Source: Neopararhizobium haloflavum
Lineage (GTDB): Bacteria; Pseudomonadota; Alphaproteobacteria; Rhizobiales; Rhizobiaceae
Reading direction: 5' to 3'
Length of the DNA: 64,000 nt
Assembly: GCF_002750855.1 (NCBI RefSeq)
Contig: NZ_NWUC01000001.1
Span: 310,001-374,000 of the forward strand
Shown here: positions 1 to 14,465 of the stretch, piece by piece
Layout of the letters: each line of letters starts with the position of its first letter
Position numbering within the stretch: position 1 is the stretch's first letter
Notes under the pieces: model-generated
The model's input: the letters and a program-made list of their open reading frames with translations, nothing else
The model's database searches: none
What the model was told of the DNA's origin: nothing
Position numbers and translations under genes: made by a program

Positions 1-111
1 CTTTCCCGCATCCGAACGTCTTGCGAATACTTCCAGCCGGAAAGGACGGGGAGAGTATGCCACGGGCCTGAGAGGTGGGGAAAACGGGGGATGAAAACAG
101 GCGGCGCGTCT

Positions 112-202
112 TTCCCCATCGGCTCGGGCGGCTCTGCCGAGGAAGCCTTGCTGCCGGGCGCTTACGGTATGGATTCCTGTGACGAGCACAGGAATGACGG
201 AG
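112..202 (-). repeat. REP-like intergenic repeat, copy 1
   Basis: This copy is closely similar over about 90 bases to the segment at 363-455, including the shared string CCCCATCGGCTCGGGCG at the left end. Its core at 174-194 is a palindrome, TTCCTGTG-ACGAG-CACAGGAA. Read on the minus strand, the unit is CGTCATTCCTGTGCTCGTCA followed by the second arm. Short palindromes of this kind recur between genes in many Rhizobiales genomes. No coding function is inferred. Confidence 0.8.
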
Positions 203-327
203 ATGGTGGGGCGGTGGCTTCCCGGCATGCCGGAGGAGGGAACGGTGGTGCAATATCGCAACGGGCTGGCGTCGGCGGATGATGTCGCGGCGCGCGTGAT
301 ATTTCGGTTTGGGGCCAACTCCCCGCT

Positions 328-358
328 CGTCACCCCTGTGCTTGTCACAGGGGTCCAT
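328..358 (+). repeat. REP-like palindrome, inverted copy
   Basis: The palindrome CCCCTGTG-CTTGT-CACAGGGG at 333-353, flanked by CGTCA and TCCATG, has the same unit as the two neighbouring copies but in the opposite orientation, with two compensated base changes in each arm. Arm changes that keep the pairing suggest that the folded form matters. Confidence 0.75.
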
Positions 359-362
359 GCCT

Positions 363-455
363 CTCCCCCATCGGCTCGGGCGATGCTGCCGAGAAAATCT
401 TGCTGCCGGGCGGTTGACGGTATGGATTCCTGTGACGAGCACAGGAATGACGGAG
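363..455 (-). repeat. REP-like intergenic repeat, copy 2
   Basis: This is a direct repeat of 112-202, with the same palindrome TTCCTGTG-ACGAG-CACAGGAA at 427-447. Together with the inverted copy at 328-358 it makes a cluster of three REP-like units in alternating orientation just upstream of the curlin-like operon. Confidence 0.8.
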
Positions 456-968
456 GACTGTAGGGTCGGTGATGAGGCGGTTTATTCCCGATAACTGAAA
501 TACCAATCGGTTCGACTTCTGTTGAGAGCGCGTGAAGCGGTCGCTCTACATACGGCAAATGGGTGATATTCGTGTTCAATCTGTATCAAAGCGGGAATAC
601 CGTGTTCCAAAACCGTCTAGATTTCAGGCGGTAAGGTTAAAAACGCGTTTGGTCCATAATGAGAGTCGATTCTTTTTGACTCTCCCGAAAGTGAACGGTA
701 ATTTTACCGCGGGTTAAGGGATTATTAACCGAAACGAAGTGGGCAACAACAACGACATCCGTCGTCCTTGGGGGGATTCCGGAAACCCTTCCGCTCGATC
801 TCTTGCCTGTGGCTGAAAGGCCGCGGCAACGCCATGGCGCGTGAACATGCTGCACCACCGAGCAGCATGGGGGCGAAGCCATGCGCCAAAGCCCGGACCG
901 CAATCGGCCGCCGTTCAACAGCGTTCCCGGCGATCAAGGTCGGGCGGACAACGGGAAGGTGCGTAACA
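456..968 (+). other. non-coding leader region upstream of the curlin-like operon
   Basis: No convincing gene was found here; the reading frames present lack conserved features and ribosome binding sites. The stretch is AT-richer than the surrounding DNA between about 490 and 740. It holds inverted repeats at 661-730 (listed separately) and a perfect 8-bp hairpin, CATGCTGC-accaccga-GCAGCATG, at 846-869, around which GGCGC (836-840) and GCGCC (883-887) could also pair. The promoter of the operon probably lies here, but no clear -35/-10 pair was recognised. Confidence 0.5.
661..730. promoter_or_regulatory. cluster of three inverted repeats upstream of the curlin-like operon
   Basis: Three perfect inverted repeats follow one another: GAGAGTC/GACTCTC (661-667 with 678-684), CGGTAA-TT-TTACCG (696-709) and GGTTAA-N7-TTAACC (712-717 with 725-730). 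The last two are AT-rich, compact and the size of dimeric regulator operators. They sit about 240-300 bases ahead of the first curlin-like start codon. That they bind a regulator is inference; no known consensus was matched. Confidence 0.4.
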
Positions 969-2291
969 ATGACTTCTTTCAAGACAGTATTGATGAGCGC
1001 GACGGCGCTGGGCCTGATGGCGGGTGCGGCTTGGGCAAACAACGAAGCCGATACGCTTCAAATCGGTAACAACAACACCATCTCTATTGAGCAAGGTGAA
1101 GGTAACGGAAACCGCGCAGGTGAGAACAGCAGCAATCCGCCGCTTGGTCCTGTGACGCAAGACGGCTACAACAATGAACTTACAGTCATACAGTCAGGCA
1201 ACGACAACCTCTTTGGTGCAGAGAACGGTGGTAGTGCTATACAGGGACCTACGGGTGCCGTTGGCGCCAACGGAAATGTTGGCTTGGTGACGCAGTCATC
1301 AAACGAAAACAGAATTCGCACGTTCAAGCAACTCGGAAACCAAAATGAGTCAATTATTGTTCAGGAAGGTGGTTCCGAGAATTCGATATACGAATTTAAT
1401 CAGATTGGCCGTGTTAATGAGGCCAACATCACCATGGGTGGTTCAAGGAACAGGCTGAATTTCGTTACGCAGGGAACAAGCCCCGGTCAGCCAATCAGCA
1501 GTGGCGTTGGGAACCAACTCACGATCGAAATAGACGGAAATGATAACGGGTTCAAGGAGAATACCGACTTCTCGGCGGCATCGTTTGCCTTTTCGGTCAC
1601 CGACAGGCCGGGCGACGTTCGTCAAAGAGGAAGCAGAAATGATCTGACTATTGACGTTGACGGCAACTTCAACTTCTTTGAAGTTAGAGATGAAGGTGAC
1701 CACAACTTCGGAGACGTTGTCATCAACGGAAGCAACAACGAAATGGCGATGCTTCGCACCGGCGACGGCAACTCCGCTGTGATCTCGCAGCTCGGCAGTG
1801 GCAATGATATCGGCATTGATATCCTAGGAAGTAACAATATCACTGATGTTCATCAGGAGAATGGCAGCAACGGAGCCGGTCTCTACATAGAGGGTGATGG
1901 CAACGAGCTGAACGTTACCCAAATCCGGCGGGGTGGCGTAGACGGCAACAGCGTCATGGTGAGAATCGAAGGAGATCGGAACAACGCTCCCTCGTCCCCT
2001 GTCTTTACAGGCGCGGCGAGGTCGGCCCGCAATGACGCTAGGGATAATGGTTTCGCCGCAGGTTTCAATGCAGGCGATCTTTTCCAGCGTGGCAGCGGAA
2101 ACTCGGTTGAATTGACTGTGCTTACGGACCGCAATGCGTTCGCCACATATCAGAACGGCAACGAAAACGAGATCACCGGCACGGTTGGCGTTGGCAACGG
2201 CAACCAGGCGGTGGTCGCACAGATTGGTAACGGACACGTCGCCAACTTCGTTCAGAACGGCGACGGCAACAACGTCGGCATCAGCCAGTAA
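969..2291 (+). CDS. secreted curlin-like repeat protein (large, 440 aa)
   Basis: This is a probable amyloid fibre subunit of the curli (CsgA/CsgB) type. Residues 1-23 form a signal peptide ending AGAAWA, with mature protein starting NNEADTLQIG. The rest is a chain of imperfect repeats of about 20 residues with the curlin signature of spaced Gln, Gly and Asn, for example QIGNNNTISIEQGEGNGN near the start, QLGSGND in the middle and QNGDGNNVGISQ at the end. E. coli CsgA is about 150 aa, so this subunit is roughly three times larger. The start was chosen for the signal peptide and the GGGAAGG about 11 bases upstream; longer in-frame starts lack both. It is first of a six-gene plus-strand operon. 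Base composition is much lower in GC than in the next gene. Confidence 0.85.
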   Translation: MTSFKTVLMSATALGLMAGAAWANNEADTLQIGNNNTISIEQGEGNGNRAGENSSNPPLGPVTQDGYNNELTVIQSGNDNLFGAENGGSAIQGPTGAVGANGNVGLVTQSSNENRIRTFKQLGNQNESIIVQEGGSENSIYEFNQIGRVNEANITMGGSRNRLNFVTQGTSPGQPISSGVGNQLTIEIDGNDNGFKENTDFSAASFAFSVTDRPGDVRQRGSRNDLTIDVDGNFNFFEVRDEGDHNFGDVVINGSNNEMAMLRTGDGNSAVISQLGSGNDIGIDILGSNNITDVHQENGSNGAGLYIEGDGNELNVTQIRRGGVDGNSVMVRIEGDRNNAPSSPVFTGAARSARNDARDNGFAAGFNAGDLFQRGSGNSVELTVLTDRNAFATYQNGNENEITGTVGVGNGNQAVVAQIGNGHVANFVQNGDGNNVGISQ

Positions 2292-2300
2292 TTACAATTT

Positions 2301-2329
2301 CAACCGGGCGGAGAAGATCCGCCCGGTTG
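2301..2329 (+). promoter_or_regulatory. intergenic hairpin between curlin-like genes 1 and 2
   Basis: A perfect 12-bp stem, CAACCGGGCGGA (2301-2312) with TCCGCCCGGTTG (2318-2329), has a 5-base loop. No run of T follows, so it is not a classic terminator. A 3' stem-loop here could stabilise the upstream message or partly attenuate read-through, giving unequal amounts of the two subunits. The effect is inferred; the structure is seen. Confidence 0.6.
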
Positions 2330-2351
2330 CTTCAACTTAGAGCGTGAACCA

Positions 2352-3818
2352 ATGTGCGTCCGCGGGCCGCTCGCTTTTCTCGCCGTTCTGTTCTCCATGA
2401 GCACTGCAATTGCTCAAACGCTTGATCAATTCAACCGCGCGTTTCTCGGACAGGTGGGCGACACGAACACTGTGACCATCACGCAGGAAGGCGCGGGCAA
2501 TCTTGTCGGGGAGGATGATCCGGTCTCCCGGCTGAACCAGTTCGGCGACCTCAATAGCATCACCATCGACCAGTATGGCTATGGCAACGATGTCGGGTCG
2601 GCGCTTCGGGTCGGGCCTTATCGCGCCAACGGGCCGAACCAGCGCGGCGAAAGGAACGTTCTTCTGATCGAGCAGCGCAATCTGGAGCCGTCTTCCGGCC
2701 ATAGGGTGGAGGCGGTGGCGCAGCGGGCTTTTAGCGGGCGCGCGGGCGTCGGCAACCTTCTGGAGATCCACCAGGCGAGCCTTGCCGGCGAGGCGGGCCA
2801 GCGGATCGGCCAGGCGGTGCAGGTGGCCCCTGGCACGGGCGGCGCGGCGAATGTCATGCAGATCAGCCAGGCGGGCGGCGATCCCGGCGGCATCTTCGGC
2901 GGCAATGGCGCCGAACAGCTCTGGCAGTGGGGCGCGGGCAATCATTTCATGCTGCACCAGGCATTGGGCGGCAACACGCTGATGACGCTGAGCCAGCGCG
3001 GGACGGACAACCGGGCCGAGGTCGCGATGCGCGGGGCGGGCAATTTCGTCGACCTCATCGAGCAGAACAACGACGTGACGGGCGGGCCGGGCAACCGGGC
3101 GCGGCTTACATTTCTCAGCGACGGCAACGGGCGCGATGACGACACTGGACCTGGTTCCGGGAGCGGGCGTTCGGGCGCGGTTGGCGGCGGGCTGTCGGAT
3201 TTCGCGCGCGATTTCACCGGGCCGCGGCGGCCGGGGCAGGCAGCGATCGTGCAGCTCGGCAGCGCCAACACGCTTTCCTATCTGGCCGATGGCGGGACCG
3301 GCAACCTCTACGGGTTCCACCAGGACGGCACCGGCAACGACGTCGCCGCGAGCGCGATCGGCACGGGCAACGAGATGGCGGCGCTGCAGTTCGGCGACGG
3401 CAACACCCTGTCACTGACGCAGGAGGGCGCGGAGAACCGCGCCAGCGTGGAGCATGCCGGCAGCTTCGGGTCGTTCGACATCATCCAGCGTGGGGGCGGC
3501 AACATGGTCTCGGTGCTGGCGAGCGGCGATTTCATCAACGCGCCGGGCGCGGGGTTCGGCGGGGCACTGATGCCGGCCGCAACGGAACGCGCGCTGGCGC
3601 CGGGGGATATCCGCCAGGAGGGGGCCGGCAATTCTTCCACGGTGCGGGCGCTGGGTGACGCGCACCGCTTCGCCTTCAGCCAGTCCGGCGCCGGCAACAG
3701 CCTCGATCTGGAAATGGCGGGGCAAGCAAACCAGGCGCTGATCGTGCAGGACGGCGAGCGCAATGGCGCCTGGCTGAGACAGAGCGGCCGGCGCAACAGT
3801 GCATCGATACGGCAGTAA
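2352..3818 (+). CDS. secreted curlin-like repeat protein (large, 488 aa)
   Basis: This is the second curlin-like fibre subunit. A signal peptide is predicted at residues 1-21 (ends STAIAQ). The mature part is built from Gln/Gly/Asn-spaced repeats such as QVGDTNTVTITQEGAGN near the start and QDGERNGAWLRQSGRRN near the end, finishing SASIRQ. Unlike the gene before it, it is strongly GC-rich and uses mainly GGC-AAC codons, in line with the rest of the window. The central region, about residues 225-300, is rich in Gly, Arg and Asp and poorer in repeat signature. The gap to the upstream gene is 60 bases and holds a strong hairpin. The ribosome binding site is weak. Confidence 0.83.
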   Translation: MCVRGPLAFLAVLFSMSTAIAQTLDQFNRAFLGQVGDTNTVTITQEGAGNLVGEDDPVSRLNQFGDLNSITIDQYGYGNDVGSALRVGPYRANGPNQRGERNVLLIEQRNLEPSSGHRVEAVAQRAFSGRAGVGNLLEIHQASLAGEAGQRIGQAVQVAPGTGGAANVMQISQAGGDPGGIFGGNGAEQLWQWGAGNHFMLHQALGGNTLMTLSQRGTDNRAEVAMRGAGNFVDLIEQNNDVTGGPGNRARLTFLSDGNGRDDDTGPGSGSGRSGAVGGGLSDFARDFTGPRRPGQAAIVQLGSANTLSYLADGGTGNLYGFHQDGTGNDVAASAIGTGNEMAALQFGDGNTLSLTQEGAENRASVEHAGSFGSFDIIQRGGGNMVSVLASGDFINAPGAGFGGALMPAATERALAPGDIRQEGAGNSSTVRALGDAHRFAFSQSGAGNSLDLEMAGQANQALIVQDGERNGAWLRQSGRRNSASIRQ

Positions 3819-3876
3819 ATGATGTGAAGGTCAGGACCCGCGATGATGGGCGAAGACTATAAATTAACGGAAGACT

Positions 3877-3911
3877 GCAAGACTTCTCCCGCACCATTCG
3901 GGAGATCTTGC
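3877..3911 (+). promoter_or_regulatory. hairpin covering the ribosome binding site of the third curlin-like gene
   Basis: GCAAGA (3877-3882) pairs with TCTTGC (3906-3911), and CTCCCG (3886-3891) pairs with CGGGAG (3899-3904), around a 7-base loop. The right arm contains the only good Shine-Dalgarno match, GGGAG, 8 bases before the ATG at 3913. A folded transcript would therefore hide the ribosome binding site. A TATAAA at 3858-3863 could belong to an internal promoter, but no convincing -35 was found. The regulatory role is inference. Confidence 0.5.
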
Positions 3912-3912
3912 A

Positions 3913-4416
3913 ATGCGACAGTTCATTTCACTCGGATCGGCCGTTGCCGGTGGTCTTGTTCTGGCAAGCCTGCCGGCGCTGGCCGCAGACCATTGGCCGC
4001 AGGATCGGACCCAAGCGGCCAATACGGTGACGCTCGACATCGCGGGGCGGGGCAATGTGCTGACGATCGAACAGGCGAACGCCGGCGCGGCAGGGGCGGC
4101 GGGCAACAGGCTCGATCTCCTGGTGTCGGGCAACGGCAATGGCGGGGCTGGCGAGTTTGCCGGCGCTGCGGCGCAGATGGAAATGCGGCCGGGCGTCCTG
4201 CAGCAGAACGGCGCGGCGAACAGCCTGGAGCTTGCGGTCCTTGGGAACGACAATCTCTTCGCCGTGCGCCAGTCGGGCGCGGCCAACGCGCTGATGGCGC
4301 AGATCTCCGGCCATGCCAACCAGGCTGTCGTCAGCCAGGCCGGACAAAACAACATCGCGGCCTTTTCTCAAGTCGGAAGAGGCAATATAGTGAGTATCAG
4401 CCAGATATCCTGGTAG
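3913..4416 (+). CDS. secreted curlin-like protein of CsgA/CsgB size (167 aa)
   Basis: The length matches classical CsgA/CsgB (about 150 aa). A signal peptide covers residues 1-24 (ends LPALAA). The C-terminal half carries tandem curlin-like units (QQNGAANSLELAVLGNDN, then QSGAANALMAQISGHAN, then QAGQNNIAAFSQVGRGN), ending SISQISW. The final repeats are the most regular of the operon. It could be the nucleator (CsgB role) or a main subunit; sequence alone does not decide. The start is fixed by the signal peptide and GGGAG 8 bases upstream, which sits inside a hairpin. Confidence 0.82.
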   Translation: MRQFISLGSAVAGGLVLASLPALAADHWPQDRTQAANTVTLDIAGRGNVLTIEQANAGAAGAAGNRLDLLVSGNGNGGAGEFAGAAAQMEMRPGVLQQNGAANSLELAVLGNDNLFAVRQSGAANALMAQISGHANQAVVSQAGQNNIAAFSQVGRGNIVSISQISW

Positions 4417-4435
4417 GGCCGAGTTTAGATCGGCC
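4417..4435 (+). promoter_or_regulatory. short intergenic hairpin between curlin-like genes 3 and 4
   Basis: GGCCGA (4417-4422) and TCGGCC (4430-4435) form a 6-bp stem with loop GTTTAGA, starting directly after the upstream stop codon and ending 5 bases before the GGAGG of the next gene. It is the third hairpin in the gaps of this operon. No U-run follows. Confidence 0.45.
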
Positions 4436-4453
4436 GCATTGGAGGTCATGCGC

Positions 4454-5197
4454 ATGAAAAGATTTCAGGCAACCATCCTCTCCAGTGCCGCCGTGATCGT
4501 TTTCTCGGCCGCACCCGTGCCGGCACAGGACAATCAAGTCTATATCGAGCAGCAAGGCAGCGCCAACACGCTGTTCATCGACCAGAGCGAGGCGAGCGGC
4601 AGTACGGTGCGCGGGCTGGAGATGACGTCGGGCGGCAGCGTGACGGCGACGGAGCGGTGGACGGATACGGTCGTTGTGCGTGATGAGGCGGGCGATGAGG
4701 TGACGGAAACCGTCGAGTTCAGCGAGACGGCGACGGCGCGCACGGTCGCCTATGAGAACGCCGATCGGGCCTTGCAGGATGGCGTCGGTAATTCGGCGTC
4801 GATCACCATGACGGGAAATGGCGGCACTGCGCGGCTGCTTCAGGATGGGAACGGCAATGTCGGGGCGCTGAACGTCGGTGCGGGCGGACTCGGGGCTTTG
4901 GGGCAGCAAGGGACGGGCAACATTGCCTCGCTGATGGTCGGCCCAGGGTCGAGCGGGACGATCCTTCAAGATGGCGACGACAATGAGGGAAGTCTGAATG
5001 TCGAGGACGGAAGCGGGTTCCTCAGCCAGCTCGGCAGCAACAATACTGCGCAGTTCACGGTGTTGAACGGCCAGAACGTGACATACATCCAGAATGGCTC
5101 AAACCTGAGTGCGATCAATCCGGGAACGGGCGTCACGGTCGATACGAACAGCGCCGGGGGCGTGACGATCATCCAGTCCGTCATCGGCGGCAATTGA
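4454..5197 (+). CDS. secreted curlin-like protein with atypical N-terminal half (247 aa)
   Basis: A signal peptide covers residues 1-24 (ends APVPAQ). One curlin-like unit follows (YIEQQGSANTLFIDQS). Then come about 55 residues rich in Thr, Glu and Val without the repeat signature (TVRGLEMTSGGSVTATERW and onwards), and then regular units again (QDGVGNSASITMTGNGG, QQGTGNIASLMVGPGSSG, QLGSNNTAQFTVLNGQN). The ATG at 4454 was preferred over 4439 and 4448 because GGAGG at 4441-4445 is 8 bases upstream. The odd insert could be a linker or a site for attachment or nucleation; no function is known. Confidence 0.78.
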   Translation: MKRFQATILSSAAVIVFSAAPVPAQDNQVYIEQQGSANTLFIDQSEASGSTVRGLEMTSGGSVTATERWTDTVVVRDEAGDEVTETVEFSETATARTVAYENADRALQDGVGNSASITMTGNGGTARLLQDGNGNVGALNVGAGGLGALGQQGTGNIASLMVGPGSSGTILQDGDDNEGSLNVEDGSGFLSQLGSNNTAQFTVLNGQNVTYIQNGSNLSAINPGTGVTVDTNSAGGVTIIQSVIGGN

Positions 5198-5198
5198 G

Positions 5199-5561
5199 AT
5201 GCGCCGGCTCATCATGGTCCTGGCCGGGTTGATGGCGGCAGGGCAGCTAGCTCACGCCGATGAGGGTCCGGCGCTCGCCGCCGTCTCGATCGAGCCGGGC
5301 GATGGCGGCGTGACGATCGTCGGGCGGGCGACGGCGCTCGAGGGCGGGCGATACGAGGCGCGGATGGTGATCGAGAAATCCGGCACGTCCGGCCGGACCT
5401 CGACGCGGCAGGGCGCGCATCTCGATCTTGCCGCCGGGGAGAGCGCCGATGTCGCGCGGGTCGGCCTTTCGCTGCAGGCCGGCGACAGTCTCGCGGTGAC
5501 CGTCGAGGTGATGGAGGATGGCGCGGTCGTCTCGCGGGCGACCACGCAGACAACGTATTGA
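5199..5561 (+). CDS. csgH: CsgH/CsgC-like curli assembly chaperone
   Basis: This is a small periplasmic protein expected to stop curlin subunits polymerising too early. A signal peptide covers residues 1-20 (ends AHA). The mature domain, about 100 residues, reads as an immunoglobulin-like beta sandwich with the segment MVIEKSGTSGRTSTRQG typical of alphaproteobacterial CsgH, followed by LAAGESADVARVGLSL. It has no Cys, like CsgH and unlike CsgC with its CxC pair. The start lies one base after the stop of the preceding subunit gene, so translation is probably coupled. Its presence supports reading the four repeat proteins as true curli-type amyloids. Confidence 0.75.
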   Translation: MRRLIMVLAGLMAAGQLAHADEGPALAAVSIEPGDGGVTIVGRATALEGGRYEARMVIEKSGTSGRTSTRQGAHLDLAAGESADVARVGLSLQAGDSLAVTVEVMEDGAVVSRATTQTTY

Positions 5562-5595
5562 GCCGTTCGGAACGCGGCAGGGGAAGGGGCATTCA

Positions 5596-6318
5596 ATGGG
5601 GTCGATACGCGCACTGGCGGTTCAGCTGATCGTCGCGTCACTTTTCGTGGTTCCAGCCAAGGCGCAGACGGAAGCGGAATTCATCGCCGCCTTCGCAGGC
5701 GCATGGCAGACTTTCGAACCCTCGCTCGGCGAGGAGGGCACCTGCCGGCTGACGCTGAACGAGGAACCGTCGGACGCCCACTACGCGTTGTCGGTCGAAG
5801 CCTGCGCGGCTCCGATTTCGCAGGCCGAAACGTGGGGCATCGTCGAGAACCAGCTGGCCGTCCTGGATGACAATGGAGAAATCCTGTTGCGCCTGGGCGG
5901 CAACCAGACACGCATGACAGGCGATACCGCCACCGGCGATGCCGTCATCTTCGAGCGTGCCGACGTCGCCAAGCAGGCGTTTTCGCCCGATGCGCTGCGC
6001 GCCGGCGCCTGCCTCTATCTCGGCTATACGGCCAGCTGCGCGGCGACGGGCGACCTTGCCGCGCCGCGGGCCGTGGATGAGGGCGAGATGGCGGCCGTGG
6101 CCGTGATGGTCAACCTGAACGCGCGCCGCGAGGCCCGGCCCGATGCGGCCGTGGTCGATGTCATTCCCCGAAACACATGCGTTTCGGTCGGCCAGTGCCT
6201 CGAGGCGTCCGACGGGCGCTGGTGCCAGGTGCGCATTGCGGATGCCAACGGGTGGATCCGCCAGCAGACCGTGCGCGCCGGCCGCTGGCCTGTTCTGACA
6301 TACCGCAGCGGCTGCTGA
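5596..6318 (+). CDS. secreted AprI/Inh-like domain plus SH3b domain protein
   Basis: A signal peptide covers residues 1-23 (ends AKA). Residues about 32-105 resemble the AprI/Inh metalloprotease-inhibitor barrel: AGAWQTF, then CRLTLNEEP with a Cys50-Cys70 pair that fits the conserved disulphide, then LAVLDDNGEILLRL. Residues about 165-225 look like a bacterial SH3b domain (VNLNARREARPDAAVVDVI, GRWCQVRIADANGWI). Both assignments come from pattern reading, without a search. The gene is last in the curlin-like operon, 34 bases after the chaperone, with GGGAAGGGG ahead of the ATG. It might protect fibres from extracellular proteases or tether them to the wall; this is inference. Confidence 0.6.
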   Translation: MGSIRALAVQLIVASLFVVPAKAQTEAEFIAAFAGAWQTFEPSLGEEGTCRLTLNEEPSDAHYALSVEACAAPISQAETWGIVENQLAVLDDNGEILLRLGGNQTRMTGDTATGDAVIFERADVAKQAFSPDALRAGACLYLGYTASCAATGDLAAPRAVDEGEMAAVAVMVNLNARREARPDAAVVDVIPRNTCVSVGQCLEASDGRWCQVRIADANGWIRQQTVRAGRWPVLTYRSGC

Positions 6319-13433: not shown

Positions 13434-14465
13434 ATGGCTTCGACGATTTCAGATACCAAGCAAGCGGCCGCGGCCGGGTCCACGCCTGCCATCGCCGTCA
13501 TCGGCTGCGGCTATTGGGGCAGCAACCATGCGCGCACGCTGGCATCGCTCGGCGCGCTTGCCGGCGTGGCCGACCGGAACCGCGAGCGGGCCGAGGCGCT
13601 CGGTAGGGAGACGGGCGCACGGGCGCTCGATCCCGAAGCGGTCTTCGACGATCCGTCGATCGATGGCGTGGTGCTTGCGCTGCCGCCGCAATCGCACGCG
13701 GACAATGCGCTTCGGGCAATTGCCGCGGAAAAGCACGTTCTGGTGGAAAAGCCGATCGCGCTCGAGGTCGAGGACGGTGAGGCGATCGTGCGGGCTGCCG
13801 AGGCGGCCGGCGTGGTTGCGATGACCGGGCATGTGCTTCGTTTCCATCCGGCCTTCGAAGGGCTGATGCGCCTGATCGAAGACGGGGTGCTGGGGCGCGT
13901 GCGCTACATCCATTCGCATCGTGTCGGCCTCGGCAAGTTCCATCCCGAGAACGACGCGCTCTGGGATATCGCGCCGCACGACCTGTCGCTCATCCTCGCC
14001 ATCACCGGCGAAGAGCCGGAGCGCATCTCGGGCGAGGGTACGGCCGTTGTCGACCATCTCAGCGATTTCGCCCATCTGCATCTGACCTTTCCATCCGGAT
14101 TGAGGAGCCACGTCTTCACCTCGCGGCTCAATCCCTACCGCGAACGCCGGCTGACGATCGTCGGCGATGCGGCGATGGCGGTGTTCGACGACGTGGCGGA
14201 CTGGCCGCAAAAGCTGGTTCTCTACCGGCACAAGGTCTGGCAGGAGGACGGCCAATGGTCGTTCGACAACGCCGAGCCGGATTATGTGCCGATCGACAAG
14301 GGCATGCCGCTGACGCGCGAATGCGCCCATTTCATCGACTGCATCCGGACTGGCGGCAAGCCATTGACCCCGGTCTCCGACGGGCTTGCGGTGATGCGGA
14401 TCCTGGCGGCCGGCACGGTGCGCCACAAGGGTCCCCAGCCCGGCGCGCCCTGGCCGGGGCGCTGA
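13434..14465 (+). CDS. Gfo/Idh/MocA-family oxidoreductase
   Basis: This NAD(P)-dependent sugar or inositol-type dehydrogenase has 343 aa. The N-terminal Rossmann fold starts IAVIGCGYWGSNHARTL; EKPIALEVEDGEAI matches the conserved EKP motif with its catalytic-site Lys, and HDLSLILAITG is the usual helix contacting the substrate domain. The substrate is unknown; relatives act on UDP-sugars, inositols and glucose-type sugars. The start ATG lacks a clear Shine-Dalgarno and was chosen as the nearest Met to the domain. The gene is convergent with the MFS gene, 11 bases away. Confidence 0.87.
   Translation: MASTISDTKQAAAAGSTPAIAVIGCGYWGSNHARTLASLGALAGVADRNRERAEALGRETGARALDPEAVFDDPSIDGVVLALPPQSHADNALRAIAAEKHVLVEKPIALEVEDGEAIVRAAEAAGVVAMTGHVLRFHPAFEGLMRLIEDGVLGRVRYIHSHRVGLGKFHPENDALWDIAPHDLSLILAITGEEPERISGEGTAVVDHLSDFAHLHLTFPSGLRSHVFTSRLNPYRERRLTIVGDAAMAVFDDVADWPQKLVLYRHKVWQEDGQWSFDNAEPDYVPIDKGMPLTRECAHFIDCIRTGGKPLTPVSDGLAVMRILAAGTVRHKGPQPGAPWPGR

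Follow-up and report, generated by a model that had tools for sequence, protein, structure and literature searches.

Curlin 4 and an Inh-SH3 protein accompany a CsgE-free curli locus in Neopararhizobium haloflavum and its relatives

Introduction

In Escherichia coli, unfolded curli subunits are exported by CsgG; this channel is lined by CsgF, which also recruits the nucleator, and capped by CsgE, which is believed to carry subunits (as described in the main text of PMC7304575). According to the main text of a survey of the Alphaproteobacteria (Dueholm et al. 2012, PMC3521004), curli systems of this class have no csgE, csgC or csgD, hold up to six unlike copies of csgA/B and encode subunits of up to 529 amino acids (aa); a later survey reports that each subunit carries 4 to 62 repeats and that CsgG is missing from only 2% of CsgA-bearing genomes (main text of PMC10192328). 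Here we describe a curli locus of Neopararhizobium haloflavum whose subunit genes lie near the left end of a stretch of 64,000 bases (hereafter the window; bases 310001-374000 of contig 10, in a genome of 4.17 Mb). In this locus four unlike curlin genes, a csgH gene and a gene for a two-domain secreted protein, which we call Inh-SH3, form a single run (Table 1).

Like the E. coli curli genes (csgBAC/csgDEFG), the locus encodes curlin repeats, CsgF, CsgG and a chaperone of the CsgC/H type; unlike in E. coli, the genome has no CsgE, the four subunits measure 167-488 aa, CsgH replaces CsgC and an extra Inh-SH3 gene is present. With the alphaproteobacterial systems of Dueholm et al. it shares csgF, csgG and csgH beside the subunits, the lack of csgE and the long, unlike subunits. 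Since both csgE loss and long, unlike subunits are published, the locus represents a known kind of system, to which the window adds the Inh-SH3 gene and a conserved fourth curlin type (curlin 4), neither of them named in the main text of that survey. We consider it very probable that this run of genes provides the subunits of a curli (type VIII secretion) system, forming one half of its locus, and includes a conserved curlin 4/Inh-SH3 module.

Results

Full-length Inh-SH3 was found in four of 81 genomes sampled from the family: the window's own and those of Rhizobium albus (assigned to the same genus as the window genome in this sample), Mangrovicella endophytica and Consotaella salsifontis (G024, G042 and G052). 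The three relatives are 46-57% identical to the window protein, their loci are laid out as in the window, and in all four genomes the gene directly follows csgH; the remaining family matches at E <= 0.001 are weak (best 9.7e-8) and mostly confined to one domain. Among 397 genomes sampled from the order, 15 carry Inh-SH3 at E <= 1e-15, and the 14 in which it is near full length all encode a full-length CsgF; the fifteenth match (G150) consists of the C-terminal part only. Seven Inh-SH3 loci were obtained from a scan of named genomes, three of them already counted in the family sample, and a plasmid search returned a full-length copy from Aureimonas sp. AU20, which lies immediately behind csgH and is annotated only as "SH3 domain-containing protein", together with a partial copy from Sulfitobacter. 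Altogether 22 loci were mapped (L008, L037-L039, L059, L061-L063, L094-L106 and L113), comprising 4 from the family sample, 4 further from the named genomes, 13 further from the order sample and 1 from the plasmids.

In all 22 mapped loci, full-length Inh-SH3 shares its cluster with csgF and csgG. The usual order is csgF, csgG, large curlins, curlin 4, csgH and Inh-SH3; in Consotaella (L039), csgF-csgG lie downstream of Inh-SH3, which follows csgH. While csgH directly precedes Inh-SH3 in 19 of the loci, no CsgH was found with a profile built from four proteins in the other three, which belong to two Donghicola species and an alphaproteobacterial metagenome-assembled genome; there, curlin 4 stands directly before Inh-SH3 and the two frames overlap by 4 bp. 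The large curlin nearest curlin 4 measures 476-570 aa in the 19 csgH-bearing loci, its orthology to window subunit 2 having been checked in the family sample only. In that sample, phmmer identified relatives of subunit 2 (476-570 aa) and of subunit 3 (166-185 aa) in the three related genomes. A curlin of about 166-185 aa precedes curlin 4 in 16/22 loci; none is listed for L061-L063, L103 or L106, and L059 shows a 69-aa frame only.

A profile derived from 15 curlin 4 proteins matches every one of the 22 Inh-SH3 loci, with the seven rows outside the training set scoring 176-311 bits and the best other protein 85.5 bits among the matches listed. In the three csgH-less loci the match falls into two pieces because the middle part is missing. 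A partial curlin-4-like protein (76 bits) is also encoded on the Sulfitobacter plasmid. The AlphaFold2 model of curlin 4 is strand-rich (predicted local distance difference test (pLDDT) 72.0; predicted template modelling (pTM) score 0.67), and an insert at about residues 56-101 is predicted to form a long beta hairpin, the base of which is of low confidence. Alignment shows this insert to be shorter in the genus g149 and absent in Donghicola, so the hairpin is not the conserved part of curlin 4. As a fold search with the model returned no solved fold at E <= 0.001, our structural claims about curlin 4 are limited to predicted strands.

In Inh-SH3, both sequence and modelled structure support a barrel of the Inh/Omp19 type fused to an SH3 domain. 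Its product exceeds the Pfam cut-offs for Inh (PF02974, 25 bits) and SH3_4 (PF06347, 24.1 bits), and a sequence search recovered Omp19 (7mhw, E 1e-6). When the AlphaFold2 model (21 sequences, pLDDT 81.8, pTM 0.75) was compared with solved structures using Foldseek, 7mhw was again matched (E 5e-6), along with a marine protease inhibitor (2e-3) and an Erwinia inhibitor in complex with a Serratia protease (5e-3); bacterial SH3 domains appeared lower in the list with weak E values (about 0.07 and above), several of them being cell-wall-binding domains. Six cysteines are invariant in the 21 Inh-SH3 sequences, two of these within the Inh region, and all 21 have Q-S or Q-T immediately behind the signal cleavage site, which was placed by eye. 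Residues 26-33 are predicted to be helical, and the first 20 residues are modelled with low confidence. Relative to the Inh/I38 inhibitors and Omp19 (7mhw, 1smp_I, 6iy4), the protein has the same predicted barrel fold and the two invariant Inh-region cysteines, but differs in its SH3 fusion, its predicted helical N-terminus and its location in a curli operon. A literature search of open-licence PMC papers (without supplements or figures) found no paper linking Inh-SH3 to curli; the text of PMC11406972, as far as it was covered, draws no link of Omp19 to curli, and the covered text of PMC12620975 mentions neither 'SH3' nor 'curli'.

The CsgG proteins of these loci also group together. In an unrooted tree of 29 CsgG proteins, in which long branches may attract and near-copies inflate clustering, a branch (95/97) separates the 22 Inh-SH3 loci from the rest; it recurs in 94% of 200 bootstrap trees, and 0/500 shuffles were as low. 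CsgF was detected in 31 order-sample genomes, where 22 matches reach the profile end and 9 stop at position 54 or before; Inh-SH3 (E <= 1e-15) is absent from 8/22 genomes with full-length CsgF and from 9/9 with short CsgF. Of the eight genomes with full-length CsgF but no Inh-SH3, the maps cover six (L107-L112), leaving out G172 and G310. In a sample of 385 genomes from the class, CsgF was matched in seven, six of them above the cut-off.

The export genes of N. haloflavum lie just beyond the left edge of the window (Table 1). The CsgF match spans profile positions 4-132 of 132, and csgG, the sole CsgG match in the genome at E <= 0.001, is encoded on the strand of the subunits, its end being 750 bp from base 1 of the window and 1718 bp upstream of subunit 1. 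A profile search that detected the E. coli positive control found nothing above the CsgE cut-off in the genome (best 11.8 bits vs 25), and CsgE was likewise absent, at the profile level, from 35/35 CsgF-bearing genomes tested, the window's own included; a CsgE encoded elsewhere in the genome is ruled out at that level. The first-pass annotation, which was confined to the window, had described an operon with no csgEFG for at least 60 kb to its right and about 1 kb to its left, and had named a complete csgEFG set directly left of base 1 as what would refute this. The absence holds for csgE, but csgF and csgG are found directly left of base 1, which fulfils that refutation for these two genes, and the missing exporter is a window-edge artefact. 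That annotation had also proposed, with no exporter gene present in 969..6318, that the amyloid leaves through a distant CsgG or by another route. This is almost certainly wrong, given an adjacent csgF-csgG pair on the same strand that includes the only CsgG match in the genome. Because these genes adjoin the subunits, and csgE loss and long subunits are already published, another export route is unnecessary here; following the main text of PMC3521004, CsgE is not a defining component of alphaproteobacterial curli.

The remainder of the annotated operon was borne out. All six open frames are present, separated by intergenic gaps of 60, 94, 37, 1 and 34 bp, and 4/4 of the long frames exceed the Pfam Curlin_rpt cut-off (PF07012, 20.7 bits), with their signal peptides judged by eye. 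The counts of QxGxxN motifs in subunits 1-4 were matched by 0/2000 shuffles of each protein. The gene directly after the subunits scores well above the NCBIfam CsgH cut-off (NF041112, 35 bits), and the curlin and CsgH profile matches together support the description of the locus as an operon for a curlin-type amyloid whose subunits are large and unlike one another.

By the Pfam profiles, the CsgH protein scores 16.2 bits for CsgH (cut-off 27) and 25.6 for Tafi-CsgC (cut-off 25). CsgH is defined, in the covered text of PMC4838910, by two cysteines far apart in sequence; the window protein has none, and differs in this from the CsgH of Rhodopseudomonas palustris (PDB 2N59) treated in that paper, with which it shares membership of the CsgH family by the NCBIfam profile. 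Among the 22 csgH-bearing family genomes, the matched CsgH span contains two cysteines in 18 and none in four, the latter being exactly the Inh-SH3 genomes. In g149, visual inspection of the CsgH proteins of 12 of the 13 loci (L098 being left out) showed 11 to be cysteine-free beyond the N-terminal signal part and the twelfth to contain one cysteine. The CsgH-like proteins of CsgG loci without Inh-SH3 include one with two cysteines (L107) and two with none (L109, L111), so a cysteine-free CsgH is not exclusive to Inh-SH3 loci.

CsgH occurs in 22/81 family-sample genomes (21 above cut-off), and CsgF in only five of these 22, with CsgG in the same five. In the other 17 (L041-L057), neither CsgF nor CsgG was matched at E <= 0.001 across the whole genome; csgH adjoins short curlins there, mostly of about 120-210 aa, and no exporter cluster was recognised beside csgH within 12-16 kb. 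Among the clusters listed, at least 14/17 loci are reached only by curlins, csgH and overlapping frames of the opposite strand, and one mixed-frame cluster is found in 12 of the 17. The question of the export route does therefore apply to these relatives, and how subunits are exported in csgH systems without csgG is also asked in PMC3521004 (main text).

CsgF matches reaching only to profile position 54 were seen in the nine order-sample genomes above and also in G038; the loci concerned include L086-L090 and L036/L040. When eight of the nine were inspected for motifs, five (L086-L090) showed short frames of 94-104 aa and the other three none that was usable; the first ~54 CsgF positions correspond roughly to the part inside the CsgG channel in the E. 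coli structures described in the main text of PMC7304575. At L040, where the CsgH match is under the cut-off and CsgF measures 81 aa, a curlin of 1173 aa, in which the QxGxxN motif occurs 39 times, lies next to csgG (L040:6642-10163).

The gap between csgG and subunit 1 contains two adjacent repeat pairs, of 39 bp at 100% and of 50 bp at 86%, with copies about 252 bp apart. The identical 39-bp copies lie at window positions 164-202 and 417-455 (L008:13664-13702 and 13917-13955), each after a copy of the 50-bp repeat, and the repeats contain the near-palindrome ATTCCTGTGACGAGCACAGGAAT. Scans of promoters (1 promoter-like site vs 1.8 in shuffles) and terminators (11 terminator-like sites vs 7.6 in shuffles, standard deviation 2.7) were not used further. 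The gene before csgF differs among the window, R. albus and Mangrovicella, while the curli cluster is common to relatives. An upstream ATP-binding cassette (ABC) transporter was considered as part of the system and rejected, since its only other matches are frames of 30-35% identity and these three genomes do not share the gene upstream of csgF. Two observations count against a fully unshared neighbourhood: relatives of the Mangrovicella upstream neighbour (42%) lie in the vicinity of both Donghicola clusters, and g149 loci have some of their upstream genes in common. This comparison used five queries and hardly covered the downstream sides. In Aureimonas sp. AU20 (L113), the whole curli cluster with Inh-SH3 is carried on the 489-kb plasmid pAU20a, with a sigma/anti-sigma gene pair upstream.

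Table 1. Features of the curli locus; positions are those of the window unless marked as contig positions.
Feature	Position	Strand	Length (aa)	Profile match	Remarks
csgF	contig 307555-308019 (1.98-2.45 kb left of window base 1)	+		91.7 bits (cut-off 25.8)	
csgG	contig 308081-309250 (0.75-1.92 kb left of window base 1)	+		183.9 bits (cut-off 20.8)	
Right part of 1718-bp csgG-subunit 1 gap	1..968	.			two adjacent repeat pairs
Curlin subunit 1	969..2291	+	440	PF07012 68.6 bits	10 QxGxxN motifs; signal peptide judged by eye
Curlin subunit 2	2352..3818	+	488	PF07012 74.6 bits	16 QxGxxN motifs
Curlin subunit 3	3913..4416	+	167	PF07012 31.1 bits	4 QxGxxN motifs
Curlin-like subunit 4 (curlin 4)	4454..5197	+	247	PF07012 23.0 bits	6 QxGxxN motifs
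CsgH chaperone	5199..5561	+	120	NF041112 67.8 bits	no cysteines
Inh-SH3 two-domain secreted protein	5596..6318	+	240	PF02974 28.6 bits; PF06347 25.7 bits	8 cysteines

Discussion

The constant pairing of curlin 4 with Inh-SH3 leads us, on balance, to favour the view that the two genes form a previously undescribed module for subunit handling or fibre anchoring, used by a sub-type of CsgG-positive, CsgE-free alphaproteobacterial curli. In the working that we propose, subunits would leave the cytoplasm by Sec, CsgH would prevent their aggregation in the periplasm, and the CsgG channel with CsgF would export them unfolded, without CsgE, to form a beta-solenoid amyloid outside the cell. The SH3 domain may anchor Inh-SH3 at the cell wall near CsgG, where the Inh barrel could shield or present unfolded subunits, curlin 4 foremost. 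We put forward this role of Inh-SH3, as a periplasmic accessory factor for curlin export, only tentatively.

Several observations weigh against this proposal. Inh-SH3 is found in only one of the 385 class-sample genomes, the window's own, and 13 of the 22 Inh-SH3 loci come from one genus. Eight of the 22 order-sample genomes with full-length CsgF have no Inh-SH3, which is therefore not required by every CsgG system. Partial curlin 4 occurs without Inh-SH3 in two sister loci, L110 and L112 (77 and 85 bits). Giant subunits of 593 and 519 aa are present in L107 without Inh-SH3, so subunit size does not explain Inh-SH3, and we rejected the idea that it is a consequence of giant subunits. Finally, the known relatives of the barrel inhibit proteases and need not concern curlins.

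This last point bears on a different reading, that Inh-SH3 is a true I38-type inhibitor with no chaperone or export role, and that it guards curlins against a secreted metalloprotease, either in the periplasm or on the fibre. The Inh match above the Pfam cut-off, the fold match to U-Omp19 with weaker ones to the marine and Erwinia inhibitors, and the invariable Q-S or Q-T after the presumed cleavage site all agree with it. I38 inhibitors plug the protease active site with a short N-terminal stretch, and in Omp19 the activity is carried by the disordered N-terminus (covered text of PMC9486555); the helix predicted at residues 26-33 of Inh-SH3 would leave little free N-terminus. We judge such an inhibitor function to be rather unlikely. 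It is more doubtful still that Inh-SH3 belongs to the fibre base, as a structural or anchoring component, or binds curlin 4 as a surface protein. Its tight pairing with curlin 4, with the 4-bp overlap in three loci, and the cell-wall-binding domains among its weak SH3 matches would fit this, but its eight cysteines suggest an oxidised periplasmic protein.

The absence of CsgE from every CsgF-bearing genome tested, the presence of csgF-csgG with all mapped Inh-SH3 copies and the position of the Consotaella gene between csgH and csgF-csgG would be consistent with Inh-SH3 replacing CsgE as the periplasmic adaptor of CsgG. We regard this as quite improbable, as CsgE is also missing from the eight order-sample genomes that have full-length CsgF but lack Inh-SH3, and systems without either protein evidently exist. 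No ring-forming feature was noticed in Inh-SH3 either, though no test was aimed at one.

Inh-SH3 thus stands out as a candidate new component of curli and offers a simple sequence marker of this curli sub-type. The locus also raises a testable question, namely how CsgG functions without CsgE in the Alphaproteobacteria. If the proposed role is true, a protease-inhibitor-type fold tied to amyloid export would be new to us.

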